Shown: piece after piece, positions 23,798 through 33,370 of the stretch
Position numbering within the stretch: the first letter of the stretch is position 1
How the letters are laid out: each line of letters starts with the position of its first letter
Assembly (NCBI GenBank): GCA_902761225.1
Contig: CACWJQ010000003.1
Span: 1-64,000, forward strand
Direction: 5' to 3'
DNA from: an uncultured Lachnospiraceae bacterium
GTDB taxonomy: Bacteria > Bacillota > Clostridia > Lachnospirales > Lachnospiraceae
Length of the DNA stretch: 64,000 nucleotides
Notes under the pieces: generated by a model
Told to the model about the DNA's origin: nothing
What the model saw: the letters and a program-made list of their open reading frames with translations, nothing else
The model's database searches: none
Position numbers and translations under genes: made by a program

Positions 23798-25189
23798 ATG
23801 TTCGAAGAGAAAGATAAAATTGAAATGCCGGATCTTCTGGAGATGGATGAGATCAAGCCTGATGTTGACATGCTTATCTCTGAACTTCATCATGTCCCGA
23901 AGATTGATAACAATCTTTATGTTGAATATGATGTAAAGCGCGGTCTTCGTGATTCCAACGGTAAAGGTGTCCTTACGGGTCTTACCGAGGTTTCCGATGT
24001 CGTTGCTTTTGATATTATTGACGGTGACAAGGTTCCCTGCGACGGAAGACTCTATTATCAAGGTATCAATGTCATGGATATCGTAGGCAACCTCGGTGAC
24101 AGGATCCACGGCTTTGAGGAAGTATCATTCCTTCTTCTGTTCGGACATCTTCCCAACAGGAAAGAGCTGGAAGCCTATCTTCATGTATCCAGTTCTCTCC
24201 AGGAGCTTGGTGCCAGATTTGTCCGTGACGTTGTCATGAAGGCATCTAACGGTAATATCATGAATGCTCTCCAAAGGTGTGTGCTAACACTTTATACCTA
24301 TGATCCAAGGCCGGATGATATCTCTTCGGAGAACGTCCTCAGACAGAGCCTTGAGCTTATCAATAAGCTTCCCCTGATCGCTGTATATTCATATCATTCG
24401 TATATGCACTTCAGGAAGGATGAAGCTCTTATCATCAGAAATCCCAAGAAGAACCTTTCACTTTCCGAGAATATCCTTCAGATGCTCAGACCGGATGGAC
24501 ATTACACAGAACTTGAAGCCAAGGTTCTTGATATAGCACTTATCGTTCACGCAGATCACGGCGGCGGTAACAACTCAACCTTTACAACACATGTTGTTAC
24601 GTCATCGGGAACCGACACATATTCTTCAACAGCGGCTTCCATAGGATCCCTTAAGGGACCCAAGCACGGCGGCGCCAACCTTAAGGTTCAGGAGATGTTC
24701 AGGAATCTCAAGGAGAACATAGTAAACCTTGAGGATGAAAAAGAGATTGAAGTTTATCTCAAGAAGATCCTCGATAAGCAGGCATTCGATAAGGCCGGAC
24801 TTATCTATGGTATCGGTCATGCAGTATATACACTTTCCGATCCCAGAGAGGTTCTTCTTAAGGAGTATGCAAGAACACTTGCTGTTGAGAAGGGGCTCGT
24901 AAGAGAGTTTGAATTCTATGACAGGGTAGAGCGTATTGCCAAGAAGCTCATAACCGAGAACAAGGGAATCCTTAAGCCTGTATGTGCTAACGTTGACTTC
25001 TACAGCGGACTTGTCTACAGCATGCTTGGAATCCCCGAGGAACTCTTCACACCGCTCTTTGCGATTGCAAGAATGTCCGGATGGAGTGCACACCGTCTTG
25101 AGGAGATAGTGAACGGCGGCAAGATCGTACGTCCTGCGTTTAAGTATGTTGGAGAGCATACAGCATACAAGCCCATCGAGGAACGTTGA
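23798..25189 (+). CDS. gltA: Citrate synthase (type I/II fold)
   Basis: The enzyme condenses acetyl-CoA with oxaloacetate to citrate. In a fermenter this normally feeds 2-oxoglutarate and glutamate synthesis rather than a full cycle. I start at the ATG at 23798, which follows GGAGGG by 5 bases. The upstream 19 codons have no ribosome binding site. The 463-residue protein has the catalytic triad His290 (GPKHGGAN), His341 (GIGHAVYTLSDPR) and Asp400 (ANVDFYSG). It is monocistronic between two terminators. A 2-methylcitrate synthase activity cannot be excluded from sequence alone. Confidence 0.92.
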   Translation: MFEEKDKIEMPDLLEMDEIKPDVDMLISELHHVPKIDNNLYVEYDVKRGLRDSNGKGVLTGLTEVSDVVAFDIIDGDKVPCDGRLYYQGINVMDIVGNLGDRIHGFEEVSFLLLFGHLPNRKELEAYLHVSSSLQELGARFVRDVVMKASNGNIMNALQRCVLTLYTYDPRPDDISSENVLRQSLELINKLPLIAVYSYHSYMHFRKDEALIIRNPKKNLSLSENILQMLRPDGHYTELEAKVLDIALIVHADHGGGNNSTFTTHVVTSSGTDTYSSTAASIGSLKGPKHGGANLKVQEMFRNLKENIVNLEDEKEIEVYLKKILDKQAFDKAGLIYGIGHAVYTLSDPREVLLKEYARTLAVEKGLVREFEFYDRVERIAKKLITENKGILKPVCANVDFYSGLVYSMLGIPEELFTPLFAIARMSGWSAHRLEEIVNGGKIVRPAFKYVGEHTAYKPIEER

Positions 25190-25218: not shown

Positions 25219-25245
25219 GCGGCAGTCTTTACGACTGCCGCTTTT
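25219..25245 (+). terminator. Intrinsic terminator after citrate synthase
   Basis: GCGGCAGTC and GACTGCCGC form a perfect 9-bp hairpin with loop TTTAC, followed by TTTTCTT. Confidence 0.88.
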
Positions 25246-25337
25246 CTTAATTGATTTAGCAGGTCAATATGTTTATTGATGTTTATTAATTTTCATCGGA
25301 TTTAGATATTGCATTCAACGTTACAATCAAATCAGTT

Positions 25338-25415: not shown

Positions 25416-28400
25416 ATGAAAACTTGGAAATTTAACAGATTATTAACATCTGCTCTTATGTCTGCGATTCTGTTTGCAGGTTCATTTTCTATTCCTGTAA
25501 ATGCAGCTGAATTATCATCTTCCGAATTCGAGAATGAGAATGGTGTTGAGGATGAATTTTTTAATGAATCAACAGATTCTTCAGAAACTATTATTAATCA
25601 ATTTGTAGATACGGAAAAGATATATGAGGGTGATGGATACAGCATTATCTTTTCACTTGTTGCTTCCTGGGAAGGGGGATACAATCTTGTTGTTTCTATC
25701 ACAAATACCGGCGATACTCCTATAGAAAACTGGTTCCTTTCATTTGATTATGCTACTGATATAACAAATATCTGGAATGCCGAAGTGTTCAGCAGGACTG
25801 ATAATGATTATGTAGTGAAGAACGTCATATGGAACAGCGATATACTTTCTGGCGATACCGTCAGTTTTGGCCTTGCAGAAGCAGGCTCTTTTCCGGGATT
25901 CCCCGAAAATGCATTAATTCTGAATCCGGGCACCTCTCAGGCGCATGATAATCATTCCATTACCTTCAATTATGATAATGAGTGGGTAGAAGGCTTTGTT
26001 GCAGGTATTACCATATCTAATGATTCCGCTGATAATATAGAAGATTGGATGCTTGAGTTTGATTTTGACAGAGAGATAACTTCAGTCTGGAATGCATCGC
26101 TTGTATCACATGAAGATAACCATTATGTGATAAAGCGTGCCCGGGAAACATTCTGTATTGCTTCTGGTCAGGCGGTGACCTTCGGGTTTATCGGAGAAGG
26201 AGGAGAAACCGGCATGTCTCCCGAGAATTTTATCCTTTCCGAAGCTGAATTCTACGGTTCGAATCATACAGACCAGAATCCTGATGATGATAATCCTGCA
26301 ACCTATGATGATGCAGATGACGACGGGGATGGGCTCACTAACGGATTTGAAGTCATGATCGGAACTAATCCTAATCTCGAGGATACGGACGGAGACCTTC
26401 TTTCAGACTATCAGGAGGTTTATCTTACATGGACAGACCCAACTTTATATGACACAGATGGAAACGGTGTAAGCGATGCTGATGAAGACCTTGACGGAGA
26501 CGGTCTCGGAAATCTTGAAGAGTTTGCACTTGGCACCGATACCGGACATCCCGATTCTGACAGGGATGACCTGAATGACTATGATGAAGTATATGTTTAT
26601 AATACCGATCCGTTAAATCCTGATACGGATGGCGATACACTTTGTGATGGAGATGATGTCGTTCTTGGATTCAGCCCACTGCTTCCTGATACAGATCTTA
26701 ATGGTATCAGTGATGCAGATGAAAAAGTATTCCAGACAACATCTAATGATTTTCCTCTCGGAGATGGAAGAGGGATAATCAGTGTCAGTGTGTCAATGAG
26801 CGTCAGCGGAAACATAGACAAGGAAGTCGAGATAATTAATACCTATGATTTTGATGTCAGATCCAGAGAGGTTGTGGGGCTGATTGGTGTCCCCATGGAG
26901 ATAAAGTCGGATGTTGAGTTTGATTCAGCTGTCATCACCTTTACATATGACGAATCAATGCTTGGAGATACGCCGGAAGAGAATCTGGCTCTGATGTGGT
27001 ATGACGAAGAGAATGACTGGTATCAGATTCTGGACCGTGAAAGCGTTGTGGATGCAGTAAACAATACTGTATCTTATACAACAACGCATTTTTCTAAATA
27101 TCATCTTGAAGATATAGAACAATGGTGTCACGCTTGGAACACAGTTCCTGATTATCCAAGCCTTCTACCTTCACCGTTAGCAGATTTACTGCGTCCTACG
27201 GATTATTTTCTCTTCAAGAATGTCTCATCTTATACATTATCTGTATCGGATTCTACTCCCAGTCGTATTGTTGAAGCTCTTAATGACTATGTGGCATCAA
27301 ATGACGGTGTTATTGAATGTGATATTCAATATAAAAACGGTAACGGTGGATTGTTTTCGGGATCATATGAATATATGACTTCGTCCCGAGAATATTTTTA
27401 TTCTCTCGGATATACTTTTGAACCGGGAGAAGGCATTGATCATATGCTTCATCCTTACATGACACCAAGTACTGATGAGATTGTTGAGAGTATAGTTTAC
27501 ACTGTGAATAATTATTCAGATAGTTATGAAGGCAAAAACAAAGCAATAATATGGATAGTCGATAGCTATGTAAATATTAGCGAACTCACAATGCAAAAAT
27601 GCGGGGACGCTGGAATCAGGATATATATTATAGACACGTCAAATCATCTTCTTTACGAGTCGATTGTAAATTATCAATCCATGCCGGATATTAGGTATTA
27701 TAATGGGGCTATTCTAAGTGATCCTACAACTCTTATAAATCTGATTAATCGCGACATCAATACGATTACAGACACTACAGATAATGATCTGGATGGTCTT
27801 CCGGATGTATACGAAACAATAGGAATGCAGTGCTCTAACGGCAGACGTTTATATTCAGATCCTAACAAAGAGGATACGGACGGGGATACTCTGCTGGATG
27901 GAGTTGAAATTAGTGCGGTTTTTAAGGAGAATCTATACATTGGCAATGACACATATAGAACCATTTATCTGTTTACAGAACATAGTGATCCGTCTAAAGA
28001 GGATACAGATGAGGATGGCTTGAATGACAATGTTGATACAGACCCGTTATTCTGTTTAACAAAGACTGTTAGAATTCATAACTCGTTATCAGGTGCTGAT
28101 TACTTGAGCATAGATTCTTTTGATGGAGGCGATCAGAATTGGTGGTTGAACAGAGATGATTTTTCAAACTATGTAGATGATTTACAGCATTTTGTTATGA
28201 ATGAAGATTACAGAATGGCAATGCATGGTTGCGGGATTATCGCAATGAGTGATTTGGAAATATTTTTAGCACAATCATATGGTTTTCAGCCAATGATGGG
28301 GAATCGTTTTCCCCATTATAGTACAGATGGACGTATTTCTCTAAATGATTATATGACGTATGCTGACTATAACAGAGATAATATTTATTGTATATCTACA

Positions 28401-28841
28401 TATGAAGGATATGTACATGGAATTTATACAACAGATTTATTGAATGGTTTAATCAACTATTTATTGATTAATGGAGTTGATTATCCTAATGCTAAATGGG
28501 CAGAGAGTTGTAAAAAGGATGAAGTGATATCATTCATTATATCAATGATATCTAACAATCTTCCAATTATACTTTTATATAACGCTGATGAAGAAAATGA
28601 GCAGTTACTATTTTATGATGAAGGTTATAATGCATTACGTAATGATCAAAATAGATATTCGAGATCAGCGGTTTCTCATTATATGACTATCATTGGATAT
28701 GTGATATATAATGATAGCAGTCCTTATAATACGTATCTTCTTGTGGTGGAAACCAATGGTTCTGTATATTATATTAACTATGATAAAATTGCTGAAAATT
28801 TGAATCGGAGTAATTGCAATATTTTTACTTATCATATTTAA
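25416..28841 (+). CDS. Secreted CBM2-like / calcium-repeat / C39-like cysteine peptidase protein
   Basis: The 1141-residue protein begins with a signal peptide (cleavage likely after VNA, residue 30). Two CBM2-like modules follow at about 77-169 and 181-274, with paired motifs such as NTGDTPIENWFLSFD and ISNDSADNIEDWMLEFD. Aspartate-rich thrombospondin type 3/EF-hand-like repeats (DTDGDLLSD and similar) occupy about 298-436 and recur at 770-865. Between them lies a beta-rich segment and a region resembling a VWA domain without its metal-binding DxSxS. The C-terminal 240 residues look like a papain-fold C39-like peptidase, with Cys939 (HGCGIIAMSD), His1088 (AVSHYMTIIGY) and Asn1114. GAGAGGGG precedes the ATG. 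Base composition becomes very AT-rich towards the 3' end. Cellulose or cell-surface binding plus peptide cleavage is inference. Confidence 0.75.
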   Translation: MKTWKFNRLLTSALMSAILFAGSFSIPVNAAELSSSEFENENGVEDEFFNESTDSSETIINQFVDTEKIYEGDGYSIIFSLVASWEGGYNLVVSITNTGDTPIENWFLSFDYATDITNIWNAEVFSRTDNDYVVKNVIWNSDILSGDTVSFGLAEAGSFPGFPENALILNPGTSQAHDNHSITFNYDNEWVEGFVAGITISNDSADNIEDWMLEFDFDREITSVWNASLVSHEDNHYVIKRARETFCIASGQAVTFGFIGEGGETGMSPENFILSEAEFYGSNHTDQNPDDDNPATYDDADDDGDGLTNGFEVMIGTNPNLEDTDGDLLSDYQEVYLTWTDPTLYDTDGNGVSDADEDLDGDGLGNLEEFALGTDTGHPDSDRDDLNDYDEVYVYNTDPLNPDTDGDTLCDGDDVVLGFSPLLPDTDLNGISDADEKVFQTTSNDFPLGDGRGIISVSVSMSVSGNIDKEVEIINTYDFDVRSREVVGLIGVPMEIKSDVEFDSAVITFTYDESMLGDTPEENLALMWYDEENDWYQILDRESVVDAVNNTVSYTTTHFSKYHLEDIEQWCHAWNTVPDYPSLLPSPLADLLRPTDYFLFKNVSSYTLSVSDSTPSRIVEALNDYVASNDGVIECDIQYKNGNGGLFSGSYEYMTSSREYFYSLGYTFEPGEGIDHMLHPYMTPSTDEIVESIVYTVNNYSDSYEGKNKAIIWIVDSYVNISELTMQKCGDAGIRIYIIDTSNHLLYESIVNYQSMPDIRYYNGAILSDPTTLINLINRDINTITDTTDNDLDGLPDVYETIGMQCSNGRRLYSDPNKEDTDGDTLLDGVEISAVFKENLYIGNDTYRTIYLFTEHSDPSKEDTDEDGLNDNVDTDPLFCLTKTVRIHNSLSGADYLSIDSFDGGDQNWWLNRDDFSNYVDDLQHFVMNEDYRMAMHGCGIIAMSDLEIFLAQSYGFQPMMGNRFPHYSTDGRISLNDYMTYADYNRDNIYCISTYEGYVHGIYTTDLLNGLINYLLINGVDYPNAKWAESCKKDEVISFIISMISNNLPIILLYNADEENEQLLFYDEGYNALRNDQNRYSRSAVSHYMTIIGYVIYNDSSPYNTYLLVVETNGSVYYINYDKIAENLNRSNCNIFTYHI

Positions 28842-29471
28842 ATGAACATGAAAAAAATAAAGATAAAAATCATTTCTATATTCGTTATTATACTGATGAT
28901 TGGAGTATATATAATGAACAAAGAATATAGAAAATATAATGAATATAGCCATAGCACACTTTCATCTGCAACTCCCGATGATGATTTTTCAGAAAAAATC
29001 ATGAATGTGGTTGGTGATAGATTTTTGTATCGTGGAAGTTCATTGGATGATAATAATATAAAGCAATATAGATTCTTTATATGGATACACGATACTGATA
29101 GCATTGACATTTTCGCAAAAACAATAAATCAGTATTGTGATTTGGTGGATGAAAAAACGCAAATTATTATTATGGATGGATCTGCCTCTTCCATGAGAGT
29201 TGTATTATCATTTAATAATTTTACAATATCAGATTCTGAATATTTTGATTTAAAAGGATTTTATGGATTGGATATAGTTTGGATAAATTTGTATGATTTT
29301 TGGAAAACACCTTCGACATATACAAACATTGAAGACGTACAATGGTTGGCATTACCTGATACTTTACAAAAAAAAGCTGATGAGGAGAAAATTGATTGGC
29401 ATGAAATATGGCCAAATCTTGAACAAATTATAATATATGAAACTGATACCAGAAATGAAATCATAAAATGA
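28842..29471 (+). CDS. Membrane-anchored protein of unknown family (paralog 1 of 3)
   Basis: The ATG follows the stop of the large secreted protein directly (TAA-ATG), and no ribosome binding site is visible. Translation therefore probably depends on coupling. The 209-residue product has an N-terminal hydrophobic helix (IISIFVIILMIGVYIM) and an extracytoplasmic domain of about 170 residues. The domain ends in the signature KIDWHEIWPNLEQIIIYET, which is shared with the next gene and with the broken gene after it. I do not recognise the family. The position downstream of a secreted peptidase suggests a partner, inhibitor or immunity function, but nothing in the sequence proves it. The gene is strongly AT-rich. 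Confidence 0.75.
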   Translation: MNMKKIKIKIISIFVIILMIGVYIMNKEYRKYNEYSHSTLSSATPDDDFSEKIMNVVGDRFLYRGSSLDDNNIKQYRFFIWIHDTDSIDIFAKTINQYCDLVDEKTQIIIMDGSASSMRVVLSFNNFTISDSEYFDLKGFYGLDIVWINLYDFWKTPSTYTNIEDVQWLALPDTLQKKADEEKIDWHEIWPNLEQIIIYETDTRNEIIK

Positions 29472-29490
29472 ATTTGTGAAATTCATTTTT
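29469..29490 (+). terminator. Weak terminator-like hairpin between paralogs 1 and 2
   Basis: TGAATTT and AAATTCA form a 7-bp AT-rich stem with loop GTG, followed by TTTTT. It overlaps the paralog 1 stop codon. The stem is weak and may only partly reduce read-through. Confidence 0.35.
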
Positions 29491-29501
29491 GAAATTTACT
29501 C

Positions 29502-30110
29502 ATGAATAAATCGTGTCTGTTACTTACATATGTTTTCTGGTTTTTAATGATTACAGGTTGTTCTCTTGTTCCCGCCAACGAATATGAGGCCAAGCTCCCG
29601 GATGATGAAGTGTCTGAGATAATATGTAATCATTTCGATGATAATGAATTCATCTATGATGGAAAAAGTCGTATTATTGCTTATAATATTATTTACTATC
29701 GATACATAAATGGAAATCTCGATCAGGATAGTATCACTGAATTTGCTCTGTTACTAAATAGCATTGATAATTTAGAAGATAAGAAAATTGCAGTAAATGT
29801 ATGTACTCCTTTGTCAGCAGGTGCAGCGTTAAAAGTATTTTCACTTTCAAATTTTTCGGATGATAAATTGGATAGTCCGGATTATTCGGGTTTTTATTGC
29901 CTTACAATTGCGTGGGAAGTTGCTCCGGCAAAATCTTTCCTATATGATCCATATACTTATTCTCAAATATCGAGTATAAGAAAATTAGTAGTATCTGATA
30001 AAATGCAGGAACAAGCTGATGAGGATCAAATTGATTGGTATGAAATATGGCCTGACTTGGAAGAGGTTGTTGTTTATGAGACTGACCAATATGGAAACAG
30101 GATTGAGTAA
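29502..30110 (+). CDS. Lipoprotein of unknown family (paralog 2 of 3)
   Basis: The 202-residue protein has a lipoprotein signal peptide ending in the lipobox LMITGCS, so it should be anchored by a diacylglyceryl cysteine on the outer face of the membrane. The mature part resembles the preceding gene over its whole length and ends with the same signature, here QIDWYEIWPDLEEVVVYET. The two paralogs therefore use different anchors, a transmembrane helix and a lipid. The function is unknown. It lies 30 bases after paralog 1 in the same AT-rich segment. Confidence 0.75.
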   Translation: MNKSCLLLTYVFWFLMITGCSLVPANEYEAKLPDDEVSEIICNHFDDNEFIYDGKSRIIAYNIIYYRYINGNLDQDSITEFALLLNSIDNLEDKKIAVNVCTPLSAGAALKVFSLSNFSDDKLDSPDYSGFYCLTIAWEVAPAKSFLYDPYTYSQISSIRKLVVSDKMQEQADEDQIDWYEIWPDLEEVVVYETDQYGNRIE

Positions 30111-30186
30111 ATAACTATACGGAAATAAAGAGTGTATTTGTATATTATGAGAATGTTGGTTTTAAAATATCGGATATATCTGACCG

Positions 30187-30813
30187 ATGTATGCAATTAA
30201 CAGGAAAATTATAGAGATCATTATATTTCTGTTCATCCTTATTATAATCATTGTATCAATAATATGCATTAAACCTTATTGATCATTCAGAAATGTAAAA
30301 CCAAATGATGTTTTTTCAAAGAATATAGTTGAGGAAATTGACAATATATATATATATTGGAAGTGAGATCAATAATGAGAATATATTAAGATATAGTTTT
30401 ATAATTAATTCAAAATCAAAAGATTCCATCACATTATTATATAAAGCATTAAATACAAACATTCAGTATGCTGACCCAAAAACGGAAGTGATTATCCTTG
30501 ATAGTGGGGGGAACTGCGGCAGCATCCTTTTTTATATAATTATTATAAAACGGGGACACATGAGGAGTATTATAATGGTTTCTATAGACTTTTTATTGCA
30601 CCACGATGGTTAAGTTATAATTTCTGGAATGACTGTTCAACGTATTATGAATGTATGGAAGGAATTAAAGAATTGGAGATTCCAAAGGAACTACAGGATA
30701 AGGCTTCCGGAGATGGAATTGATTGGTTTGCTGTATGGCCGGAGCTTACTCATATATCTGTTTATAATGCTGAAGATTTTTCAATAATCGAAGAGATAGA
30801 AAGACCTGATTGA
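30187..30813 (+). pseudogene. Decayed paralog 3 of the membrane-anchored family
   Basis: Translation from the ATG at 30187 gives an N-terminal membrane helix (IIIFLFILIIIIVSIICI) and then an in-frame TGA at 30280-30282. The same frame continues with NDVFSKNIVEEID, matching paralog 1, and breaks inside an alternating TA tract near 30345-30356. The match resumes in another frame (GSEINNENILRYSFIIN) and shifts back near 30510-30550. It ends with GIDWFAVWPELTHISVYN, the family signature, before TGA at 30811-30813. One stop and two frame changes make it a pseudogene. The region is otherwise without a gene. Confidence 0.8.
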
Positions 30814-30868: not shown

Positions 30869-33370
30869 ATGACTAAACAGGAATTTAGAGAATTTATAGA
30901 AGGCAGGATGGTGTACCTGGATGGAGGTACGGGAACGAATCTCGCGAAGGCGGGAATGCCGGGCGGTGTATGTACCGAGAAGTGGGTATCTGAGCATCCT
31001 GAAGCTATGCTGGATCTGCAGAGAAGATTTATAAAAGCAGGTTCTGATATACTGTATGCTCCTACCTTTACTGCCAACAGGATAAAACTTGCGGAATACG
31101 GACTTGAGAATGAACAGGAAGAGCTGATCAAAACTCTTGTCGGTATCTCAAAGCAGGCTGCATGCGAATGTACTGACAGGAGAGTACTGGTTGCAGGCGA
31201 TATCACCATGACCGGACGTCAGCTTAAGCCCATCGGTAATCTTGAGCTTGAAGAACTGATAGATGTATATAAGGAGCAGATAAAGCTTCTCGAAAAATAT
31301 GGCTGTGATCTGCTTGTTGTAGAGACCATGATGAGCCTTGCCGAGACAAGGGCAGCGCTTATCGCGGCGAAGGAAGTAAGCAGTCTTCCTGTAATGGTCA
31401 CTCTTACATTCGAAGCAAGCGGAAGGACTCTTTTCGGTACTGATGCGGTCACCGGTGCAGTTGTATGTGAGAGCCTTGGAGCCGATGCCATTGGAGTCAA
31501 CTGTTCAACAGGCCCTGCACAGATGGTTTCGATAGTTTCCGATATGGCAGCAAATACGCTGATACCGATAATCGCCAAGCCTAATGCGGGATTGCCCGAA
31601 CTTGATGAAAATAATAATACGGTCTATGCAATGGATGCAGATACATTTGCATCAGAGATGGAAGTGCTGGTAGAGGCAGGAGCACAGATTATAGGCGGAT
31701 GCTGCGGAACCACACCTGAATTTATATCTGCGATCAATAAGAAATTCGAACGCGGTCCTGTCAAAAGAAATGCATTCAGACAGGAAGGCGTCAGATACCT
31801 GTCCAGCGAAAGACAGACTCTTTCATTCGGACTTGACGGAAGATTCATAATCGTAGGTGAGAGGATCAATCCTACAGGCAAGAAGGCTCTGCAGGCTGAA
31901 CTTCGTGAAGGCAATACCGACAGGATCCTCAAGTTTGCACAGGAACAGGAAGAAAATGGTGCCGGAGTACTTGATATAAATGTTGGAATGGGAGGCATCG
32001 ATGAGGGCGCCATGATGCTCCGGGTGATTGATGAAGTCACTCAGGCTACTTCACTTCCCTTGAGCCTTGATTCAAGCTCCCCCGAGATACTCGAAGCGGC
32101 GCTCAGACATTATCCCGGAAGAGCACTGGTCAATTCGGTTTCACTTGAACCTGCGAAGTTCGAAAGACTTCTTCCCACGGTTGCAAAGTACGGAGCCGTA
32201 TTTATTCTTTTGCCCTTATCGGAAAAAGGGCTTCCCAAGGATCTTGATGAAAAAAAGGAAATAATAGATATAATCTACCGGAGGGCGGTAGAACTCGGTC
32301 TATCGAAGGAAAATATAGTGGTAGACGGTCTTGTTCAGACGGTGGGGGCAGATCAGAGTCAGGGCGTCAAGACGCTTGAGACCATCAGATATGCACACGA
32401 CAACGGATTCGCCACTATTACCGGATTATCCAATATATCCTTTGGGCTTCCCGAAAGAAGCTATGTTAATGCAACTTTCCTGACTCTGGCTATCGCTAAC
32501 GGTCTTACCATGGCAATATCCAATCCGGGACAGGAACTGCTTGTTGCCGCAGCAAGGGCTACGGATCTGCTCTTAAATAAAGATGGCAGTGACCTTGCAT
32601 ATATTGAAACTGCAGGTAAGCTTAAAGAGGCAAGGGAAGCAAGAGAAGAGCTTCTTAAGTCCGCTCAGAGTACAACCGGCGGTGTAAATACGGCTGAGAC
32701 TAAAGTAAAAAAGGATGACGGTCCCGATATTCCGGAAAACCTTAAGGCTATATACAAAGCGGTTGTTGAGGGCAACAGAAATGCCGCACCGGCAGCTGCA
32801 AAGAAGGCCATGGATGCAGGTGTCAGCGCTTCGGAGATACTGAACAACGCTCTTATTCCGGCCATTAATCAGGTGGGAGTATATTTCGATAAGGGAAAAT
32901 ACTTCCTTCCACAGCTCATATCATCCGCAGAAAGCATGAAGGGTGCCATCGGTATCATAGAACCTGAACTCAAGGCATCAAGCTCATCGGATGATGCACC
33001 ATCGGTTGTCATAGCAACCGTTGAAGGTGATATTCATGACATCGGTAAAAATCTTGTCGCAATGATGCTTGGTAACTATGGATTCAATGTTCATGATCTC
33101 GGCAAGGATATAAAGGCGGATGTTATAATAGATGAAGCGGTCAGAACAGGTTCTAAGATCATATGCCTGTCAGCTCTTATGACTACCACCATGATCCACA
33201 TGAAGGAGACCATTGAGATCATCAAACAGCGGGGACTGGATATAAAGGTTATGGTGGGCGGTGCCTGCGTAACCGAAGAATACGCAGCCGAGATAGGTGC
33301 AGACGGTTATTCCAGGGATGCGGCGGAGGCTGTTAAGGTCGCAAAGAAGCTTCTCGGAATGCAGGAATAG
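30869..33370 (+). CDS. metH: Cobalamin-dependent methionine synthase, without reactivation domain
   Basis: MetH transfers a methyl group from methyltetrahydrofolate through cobalamin to homocysteine. The 833-residue protein has the homocysteine-binding barrel (about 1-300) with zinc ligands Cys212, Cys278 and Cys279. The pterin-binding barrel follows (about 325-585), then the cobalamin module (about 620-833) with the cobalt ligand His723 in GDIHDIGKN. The AdoMet-binding reactivation domain of E. coli MetH is absent, as is usual in Clostridia, where a separate protein serves. No clear ribosome binding site precedes the ATG, but homologous residues begin at once. No S-box leader is visible upstream. 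Confidence 0.94.
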   Translation: MTKQEFREFIEGRMVYLDGGTGTNLAKAGMPGGVCTEKWVSEHPEAMLDLQRRFIKAGSDILYAPTFTANRIKLAEYGLENEQEELIKTLVGISKQAACECTDRRVLVAGDITMTGRQLKPIGNLELEELIDVYKEQIKLLEKYGCDLLVVETMMSLAETRAALIAAKEVSSLPVMVTLTFEASGRTLFGTDAVTGAVVCESLGADAIGVNCSTGPAQMVSIVSDMAANTLIPIIAKPNAGLPELDENNNTVYAMDADTFASEMEVLVEAGAQIIGGCCGTTPEFISAINKKFERGPVKRNAFRQEGVRYLSSERQTLSFGLDGRFIIVGERINPTGKKALQAELREGNTDRILKFAQEQEENGAGVLDINVGMGGIDEGAMMLRVIDEVTQATSLPLSLDSSSPEILEAALRHYPGRALVNSVSLEPAKFERLLPTVAKYGAVFILLPLSEKGLPKDLDEKKEIIDIIYRRAVELGLSKENIVVDGLVQTVGADQSQGVKTLETIRYAHDNGFATITGLSNISFGLPERSYVNATFLTLAIANGLTMAISNPGQELLVAAARATDLLLNKDGSDLAYIETAGKLKEAREAREELLKSAQSTTGGVNTAETKVKKDDGPDIPENLKAIYKAVVEGNRNAAPAAAKKAMDAGVSASEILNNALIPAINQVGVYFDKGKYFLPQLISSAESMKGAIGIIEPELKASSSSDDAPSVVIATVEGDIHDIGKNLVAMMLGNYGFNVHDLGKDIKADVIIDEAVRTGSKIICLSALMTTTMIHMKETIEIIKQRGLDIKVMVGGACVTEEYAAEIGADGYSRDAAEAVKVAKKLLGMQE

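Follow-up and report, generated by a model that had tools for sequence, protein, structure and literature searches.

The first 64,000 nucleotides of contig CACWJQ010000003.1 (assembly GCA_902761225.1), from an uncultured Lachnospiraceae bacterium, form the stretch analyzed here (the window), and between its citrate synthase gene and metH lies a locus that we interpret as a putative Sec-exported polymorphic toxin-immunity system with an anchored immunity array, a reading drawn from sequence to which we give a probability of about three in four. As the initial annotation had it, the genes run in one direction with almost no spacing: a large toxin-like protein (25416-28841, 1141 residues; an open frame with domain matches) is followed at 0 bp by a small protein of 209 residues (28842-29471, paralog 1) and, 30 bp further on, by a related one of 202 residues (29502-30110, paralog 2), with the remnant of a third copy beyond (30184-30813). 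All features are on the forward strand. The observations behind this reading are a trunk common to proteins with differing C-terminal domains (tips), the pairing of the window's tip type with the paralog family, stand-alone tip fragments beside paralogs, anchoring-type N-termini in the small proteins, a conserved Gln-Cys-His set in the tip, and the presence of the locus as extra DNA relative to congeners.

A common trunk with unrelated C-termini

The trunk of the large protein aligns, partly or wholly, with nine other large proteins of Lachnospiraceae, and in none of the nine did its own final 230 residues find a match at E ≤ 0.01. By their own last 230 residues these proteins fall into the groups L040/L043, L047/L048, and L041/L046, with L045 and L044 each alone and L042 cut by the contig. 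Pfam identified the C-termini of trunk-type proteins as DUF3289 (L040, L043, and L084), DUF4474 (L047 and L048), and Lipase_3 (L080, L081, and L086); inspection by eye alone suggested a lipase-like GHSLGG motif in L045 and a GHAF motif in L041/L046. For one DUF3289 protein, experiments have confirmed an antibacterial role as an effector of a type VI secretion system (T6SS), and the domain has been proposed to act in the periplasm (PMC12135965). A conserved trunk with a variable C-terminal tip is the arrangement of polymorphic toxins.

The C39-like tip

The tip of the window protein (28041-28838) is read as C39/papain-like from an AlphaFold2 model, conservation, and hhalign. A search with an alignment headed by a short homolog gave 91 matches, the best 80 of which represent 78 distinct loci (L094-L171). 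Residues Gln32, Cys64, and His213 of the tip (Gln907, Cys939 at 28230-28232, and His1088 at 28677-28679 of the large protein) are invariant in the alignment used for folding, which holds the window and 54 of the 78 relatives; over all 79 sequences the Gln occurs in each of the 77 that reach it (the other two being cut), the Cys in 78, and the His in 79. The model of the tip (mean predicted local distance difference test score, pLDDT, 89.1; predicted template modeling score, pTM, 0.89) is confident; it has the His on a strand and the Cys where a helix begins, and its elements follow a papain-like order. Structure prediction of this part had been suggested in the initial annotation. The placement of these two residues, together with the upstream Gln, resembles that of papain-like and C39-like enzymes. 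A single hhalign comparison of the tip with 21 Peptidase_C39_2 (PF13529) domains gave an E value of 4.1e-6 and a probability of 87, with Cys aligned to Cys and His to His; the control comparison of the paralog family with PF13529 gave an E value of 0.4. Individually, 10 of 55 members of the tip family matched PF13529 at E ≤ 0.1, the best at 6.6e-4.

The same type of tip also ends two Roseburia proteins with an N-terminal LXG domain of the type VII secretion system (T7SS; L140:3341-4813 and L142:3284-4729), in both of which the LXG domain lies just over the Pfam cut-off; Pfam found no such N-terminal domain in the window protein. The two LXG genes are followed by lipoprotein-type genes of another family, one after L140 and three after L142 (in tandem, by eye). 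The window tip as a single query had no match among genome contigs, nor did PF13529 in the window's own genome or the tip, as one query, among phages. Neither the tip nor the paralogs nor the ZU5-like domain described below had more than chance-level matches among Protein Data Bank sequences (lowest E value 0.06).

Tip-paralog pairing and tip fragments

A member of the paralog family lies downstream of the tip at five of the six tip loci that have a ZU5-like trunk, vs. one (L164) of the 72 others (Fisher p = 1.7e-6), and the five trunk-tip loci continue with one to three paralog-family genes. Two congeners have the pair: in G315 (L236) an intact toxin of 1105 residues precedes one paralog, and in G325 (L235:5289-8413) the toxin gene, which occupies two frames (726 and 323 residues), precedes two intact paralogs. 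The synteny search suggested in the initial annotation finds the pair again in other genomes. In sequence terms, an immunity-type gene directly 3′ of the putative toxin gene, at 0 bp in the window, is the gene order of polymorphic toxins. At L162, whose large protein has CBM2, lectin, and TSP3 domains, other anchored genes stand alongside.

Fragments of tips were sought with seven tips at E ≤ 1e-3 over 121 loci (1,069,083 bases, with 36 paralog open reading frames), all picked for a trunk, tip, or paralog, so that fragments elsewhere would be missed. Outside tip genes, seven stand-alone fragments were identified (in the window's own genome on contig C5, and at L155, L164, L167, L238, L239, and L241), and every one stands directly upstream of a paralog gene, at −35 to +16 bp relative to its start. 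Each corresponds to the C-terminal 113 residues, or fewer, of a tip. A separate search limited to chosen gaps added a further fragment at L161. Strings of immunity genes left as remnants of recombination are a feature of polymorphic toxins, and fragments standing beside paralogs are what such remnants would look like.

Elsewhere in the window's own genome, seven more paralog matches are spread over five contigs; of the large protein there is no other intact copy. The initial annotation had named paralogs occurring widely without the large protein as evidence against its proposal; the further copies lean that way, but two of the five places carry toxin remnants, and the copy on contig C4 stands at the contig end with its upstream part out of view. 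The first remnant is the C5 fragment. The second, on contig C6 (L019:7596-7829), is the start of a large gene directly upstream of an intact paralog, comprising a signal peptide and the beginning of a CBM2 domain (41% identity over 104 positions). On contig C65 a lone paralog is followed by a gene that appears glutamine-synthetase-like by eye. A relative of that gene (77% identity over 125 residues) stands after the toxin-paralog pair in G315 as well; on the upstream side the two places have different genes. According to a published model, a new tip-immunity cassette displaces the old tip while the old immunity gene stays (PMC3482391), and in Vibrio cholerae displaced T6SS effectors leave behind their immunity genes and the effector 3′ end (PMC5361080). 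The fragments and orphan paralogs fit this cassette-replacement model.

The paralog family and its anchoring

Paralogs 1 and 2 are 35% identical (alignment A1) and match the family profile with E values of 3.5e-81 and 1.1e-75, respectively, both being rows of that profile. Paralog 1 would be a transmembrane-anchored putative immunity protein, as judged by its hydrophobic N-terminus, and paralog 2, for which the AlphaFold2 model has a pLDDT of 86.0 and a pTM of 0.78, a lipoprotein-like one, its lipobox read by eye. The initial annotation had counted three tandem paralogs. Two are intact, and the third is a decayed pseudogene in pieces: 30283-30363, 30329-30610, and 30505-30810 match the family profile in two frames, and an N-terminal piece at 30184-30279 was recognized by eye only. 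The stretch 30505-30810 resembles, by eye, a close duplicate of the C5 paralog (L018:7544-8164).

Anchored genes are more frequent after trunk- or tip-type proteins than among background genes: by a simple rule, 22 of 29 such proteins (some of which may not be toxins) have an anchored downstream gene, vs. 27 of 117 background genes, the latter a rough yardstick of open reading frames of at least 150 residues at 10 loci with the window's own paralogs included. The gene scored was the longest same-strand open reading frame of at least 80 residues within 450 bp, for 30 proteins of which L082 is cut by the contig. Among the 22, those at L041, L089, and L090 are frames of 81-118 residues that may not be genes; the first of the tandem genes at L142 fails the rule.

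Paralog-family domains also occur inside two long proteins, L022:7302-8459 (385 residues, own contig C22) and L240:3457-5283 (608 residues), resembling polyimmunity proteins.

As a single query the paralog matched its own genome only, among 299 sampled family genomes; in 250 searched with the family profile, one more match turned up, weak and partial. Within the genus, paralog-family members were found in seven of 31 genomes and the ZU5-like domain in nine, own genome included in both counts; the wider sample had contained just one congener besides the window's own genome. Pfam assigned the window's own paralogs to no established family. NCBIfam gave scattered weak matches among 14 paralogs, the best in one member only ("RDAC family protein", E value 9e-4). 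No match was found in plasmids queried with paralog 1, in viral contigs queried with alignment A4 (one query each), or by PADLOC for four proteins. If they do confer immunity, the paralogs would form a family for which the libraries covered here have no established name.

Architecture of the trunk

A putative signal peptide of the classical type covers residues 1-31 (25416-25508, by eye). The CBM2 domains and calcium repeats that the initial annotation had read in the large protein are confirmed by Pfam: CBM_2 matches with an E value of 2.3e-34 in two stretches (25650-26250; the best at residues 79-155, the place of the second approximate), and TSP3_bac with an E value of 5.7e-7 in one stretch at residues 301-320, within a repeat region of 26286-26726 whose outer limits were set by eye. 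After the repeats comes a domain of 133 residues common to the relatives (26727-27125; shared profile A3), which bears the motif HFS at residues 558-560 (27087-27095). HFS is present in 10 of 10 C39-type toxins that carry the domain; the count is limited to these toxins, a wider census (21 of 31) having been left unused for its repeated and misplaced rows, such as L001 and L003, both of which are the window protein. We term the domain ZU5-like on two grounds: the self-cleavage of PIDD takes place at HF/S, directly downstream of ZU5 domains (PMC3210808), and polymorphic toxins are known to use ZU5 for processing (PMC3482391). Against the label, 10 members had no named ZU5 match in Pfam at E ≤ 1, and the C-terminal CxH motif given for ZU5 in PMC3482391 is replaced in the window by the sequence TTHFS. 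Matches to the ZU5-like profile occur in 28 of 299 family genomes, the weaker of which may be other surface proteins.

The next module (27126-27779), a divergent one, is, by comparison, where relatives carry a vWA domain; the relatives do match vWA in Pfam, and the window protein does not at E ≤ 1. A C-type lectin stands in the place of vWA in L046, L085, and L162, which suggests an exchangeable recognition module. The window and G315 toxins are 71% identical in the TSP3 region, 79% in the ZU5-like domain, 49% in CBM2, 41% in the tip, and 18% in the central module, so that the central module and tip have diverged most. Residues 439-788 as a single query matched seven of 250 family genomes, own genome included.

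Extra DNA at a possible insertion site, and base composition

The citrate synthase gene ends at 25189, with a likely terminator (hairpin and T-run, read in the sequence) at 25219-25249, and metH starts at 30869, leaving about 5.7 kb between them. Thirty metH loci were examined: citrate synthase adjoins metH in 13 congeners, each with a short gap of 88-238 bp (measured from the last residue, stop codon included), and the other 17 are the window, G315, and 15 in which citrate synthase lies outside the retrieved stretch. The window locus is extra DNA relative to these congeners. Since the gap in G315 holds an unrelated gene for a membrane protein of 510 residues (L277:6633-8165), more than one insertion may have occurred here.

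The initial annotation had described the whole segment as more AT-rich than its flanks, and this holds for part of it. The yardstick was 571 windows of 783 bp in the remainder of the 64 kb (minimum G+C 38.6%, mean 45.0%). Below all of these lie the vWA-like module (36.4%), the tip (30.4%), paralogs 1 (27.8%) and 2 (33.8%), and the paralog 3 remnant (29.6%), whereas the CBM2, TSP3, and ZU5-like segments, at 41-44%, have values that also occur in the flanks. As the short signal/linker part shares the low G+C (30.5%), the tip boundary is not marked by one clean step.

Proposed mechanism and points against it

We propose that the large protein would be exported by Sec, kept close to polysaccharide of plants or cell surfaces through its CBM2 domains, and stiffened by its calcium-binding TSP3 repeats, and that self-cleavage may occur at HFS of the ZU5-like domain. 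The tip would be a cysteine peptidase or a related acyl or peptide hydrolase that harms non-immune neighbors, most likely close kin, outside the cytoplasmic membrane. The anchored paralogs would attach to tips and block them on the outside of the producer's membrane; this argument from anchoring follows known cases in which the lipoprotein TilA counters the lipase TslA (PMC10730906) and membrane proteins neutralize extracellular EsxX (PMC12744356). Tandem and orphan paralogs would then be leftovers of successive replacements of tip-plus-immunity cassettes.

Several observations weigh against this proposal. At the level of the tip, the initial annotation's C39-like assignment holds in the profile comparison and falls short in Pfam, where the tip scores 14.8 bits against a cut-off of 24 for PF13529; no third catalytic Asp or Asn is evident, and relative L111 has Ser in the position of the Cys. 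A near-invariant SWG, with S or T in first place (W in 77 of 79 sequences), is TNG in the window, which thus has Asn in the W position. An Asn is found near the same spot in two congeners (SNG) and in the C5 tip fragment, but the fragment in G325 (L238) keeps SWG. Most tip loci, 67 of 78, are open reading frames of 197-325 residues (two of them cut by a contig end) with neither a ZU5 trunk nor the paralog family, and the tip domain therefore has other roles too. These short C39-like proteins come mostly from Lachnospiraceae or other Clostridia. As to the pairing and fragments, L163 has both trunk and tip, but another lipoprotein replaces the paralog family there; 29 of the 36 paralog open reading frames have no tip fragment, and the window's own gaps contain none. 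Lastly, the route by which a CBM2-bearing, Sec-secreted protein would reach its target is unexplained.

Alternative explanations

The initial annotation had left two options open, a surface-adhesion and peptidase system or an effector with several anchored protective partners. Under the former, the large protein would bind plant fiber and trim proteins of the surface or the substrate, and its small anchored neighbors would be accessory lipoproteins with no immunity function. The CBM2 and TSP3 modules would suit such a role, as would the many short tip proteins outside loci of this kind and the presence of the ZU5-like domain in large proteins that lack an anchored downstream gene (L044). We consider it unlikely, in that it accounts less well for the trunk proteins with unrelated C-termini, whose downstream genes fall outside the paralog family, for the tip fragments standing beside paralogs in seven of seven cases, and for the tip on LXG proteins. 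The differing tips, the pairing, and the fragments instead lend good support, within the limits of comparative data, to an effector with anchored protective partners.

A toxin could also be aimed at eukaryotes of the habitat, such as rumen or gut protozoa and fungi, with the paralogs guarding the producer from accidental damage. Large secreted multi-domain proteins with CBM2, and with C-type lectin modules in relatives, could serve such a purpose, and papain-like domains are known in host-directed toxins (PMC3482391); however, the orphan and tandem copies of immunity-like genes point to encounters with bacterial versions of the toxin, and toxins for distant targets are said usually to have no accompanying immunity protein (PMC12419801), making a eukaryotic target rather improbable. 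The remote similarity to C39 raises, finally, the processing of leader peptides in bacteriocin maturation, in which case the small genes would encode precursors or immunity proteins. This we regard as very improbable: the tip ends a protein that carries a putative signal peptide, the small proteins have about 200 residues and an anchor, and no ABC transporter was recognized by eye among open reading frames of at least 60 residues at 22-35 kb, no genome-wide search having been made.

Significance and comparison with known systems

Lachnospiraceae include major gut and rumen fiber degraders, and we found little on contact weapons of this family in the literature searched. If a polymorphic toxin-immunity system is indeed encoded here, its Sec-exported, CBM2-bearing trunk would tie warfare to fiber colonization, and arrays with fossil tips would make the cassette-displacement model of immunity-array growth readable in Gram-positive genomes; the tip-paralog pairs are small enough for bench testing. 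More speculatively, the locus could belong to an unnamed class of Lachnospiraceae contact toxins that are cellulose-tethered, calcium-stiffened, and self-cleaving, and in which both a central recognition module (divergent, a vWA, or a C-type lectin) and a killing tip can be exchanged. The C39-like tips would then be a new family of cysteine hydrolases acting extracytoplasmically and shared with the T7SS, countered by a new anchored immunity family whose arrays record past tips. This joint claim is tentative, and the odds are somewhat against its being right in every part.

Among the closest known counterparts is the class of polymorphic toxins dependent on the type II secretion system or Sec (Zhang et al., 2012, PMC3482391), with which the locus has in common a conserved trunk with a variable C-terminal tip, the order of toxin and immunity genes, strings of immunity genes, and ZU5 among the processing domains. 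That paper also lists Tox-PLC39 in Firmicutes, a clade to which the window tip may be akin. It differs in that ZU5 occurs there mostly with SpvB, beta-propeller, and RHS proteins, and that thrombospondin, TSP3, von Willebrand, vWA, cellulose, and carbohydrate-binding are absent from the first 300,000 of its 357,715 characters, the full text counting one "von Willebrand". The tip is like Peptidase_C39_2 in that Cys and His align at the profile level, and unlike it in lying below the cut-off, in QxW and SWG/YY motifs that are conserved within the tip family, and in having no clear Asp or Asn. Like TslA and TilA of Staphylococcus aureus, the window locus would pair an extracellular enzyme toxin with an anchored lipoprotein whose homologs vary in number, although TslA has a phospholipase tip and T7SS export, and its immunity gene is upstream of the toxin gene (PMC10730906). 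Our literature search, limited to titles and abstracts, found no description of this trunk as a toxin carrier. In the effector-immunity arrays of V. cholerae, old effectors are similarly displaced while immunity genes and the effector 3′ end remain, although these are Gram-negative T6SS effectors (PMC5361080) and the window protein would be a Sec-type toxin of Lachnospiraceae. The type of system is one already known; the trunk as a carrier and the paralog family appear new within the searches made.

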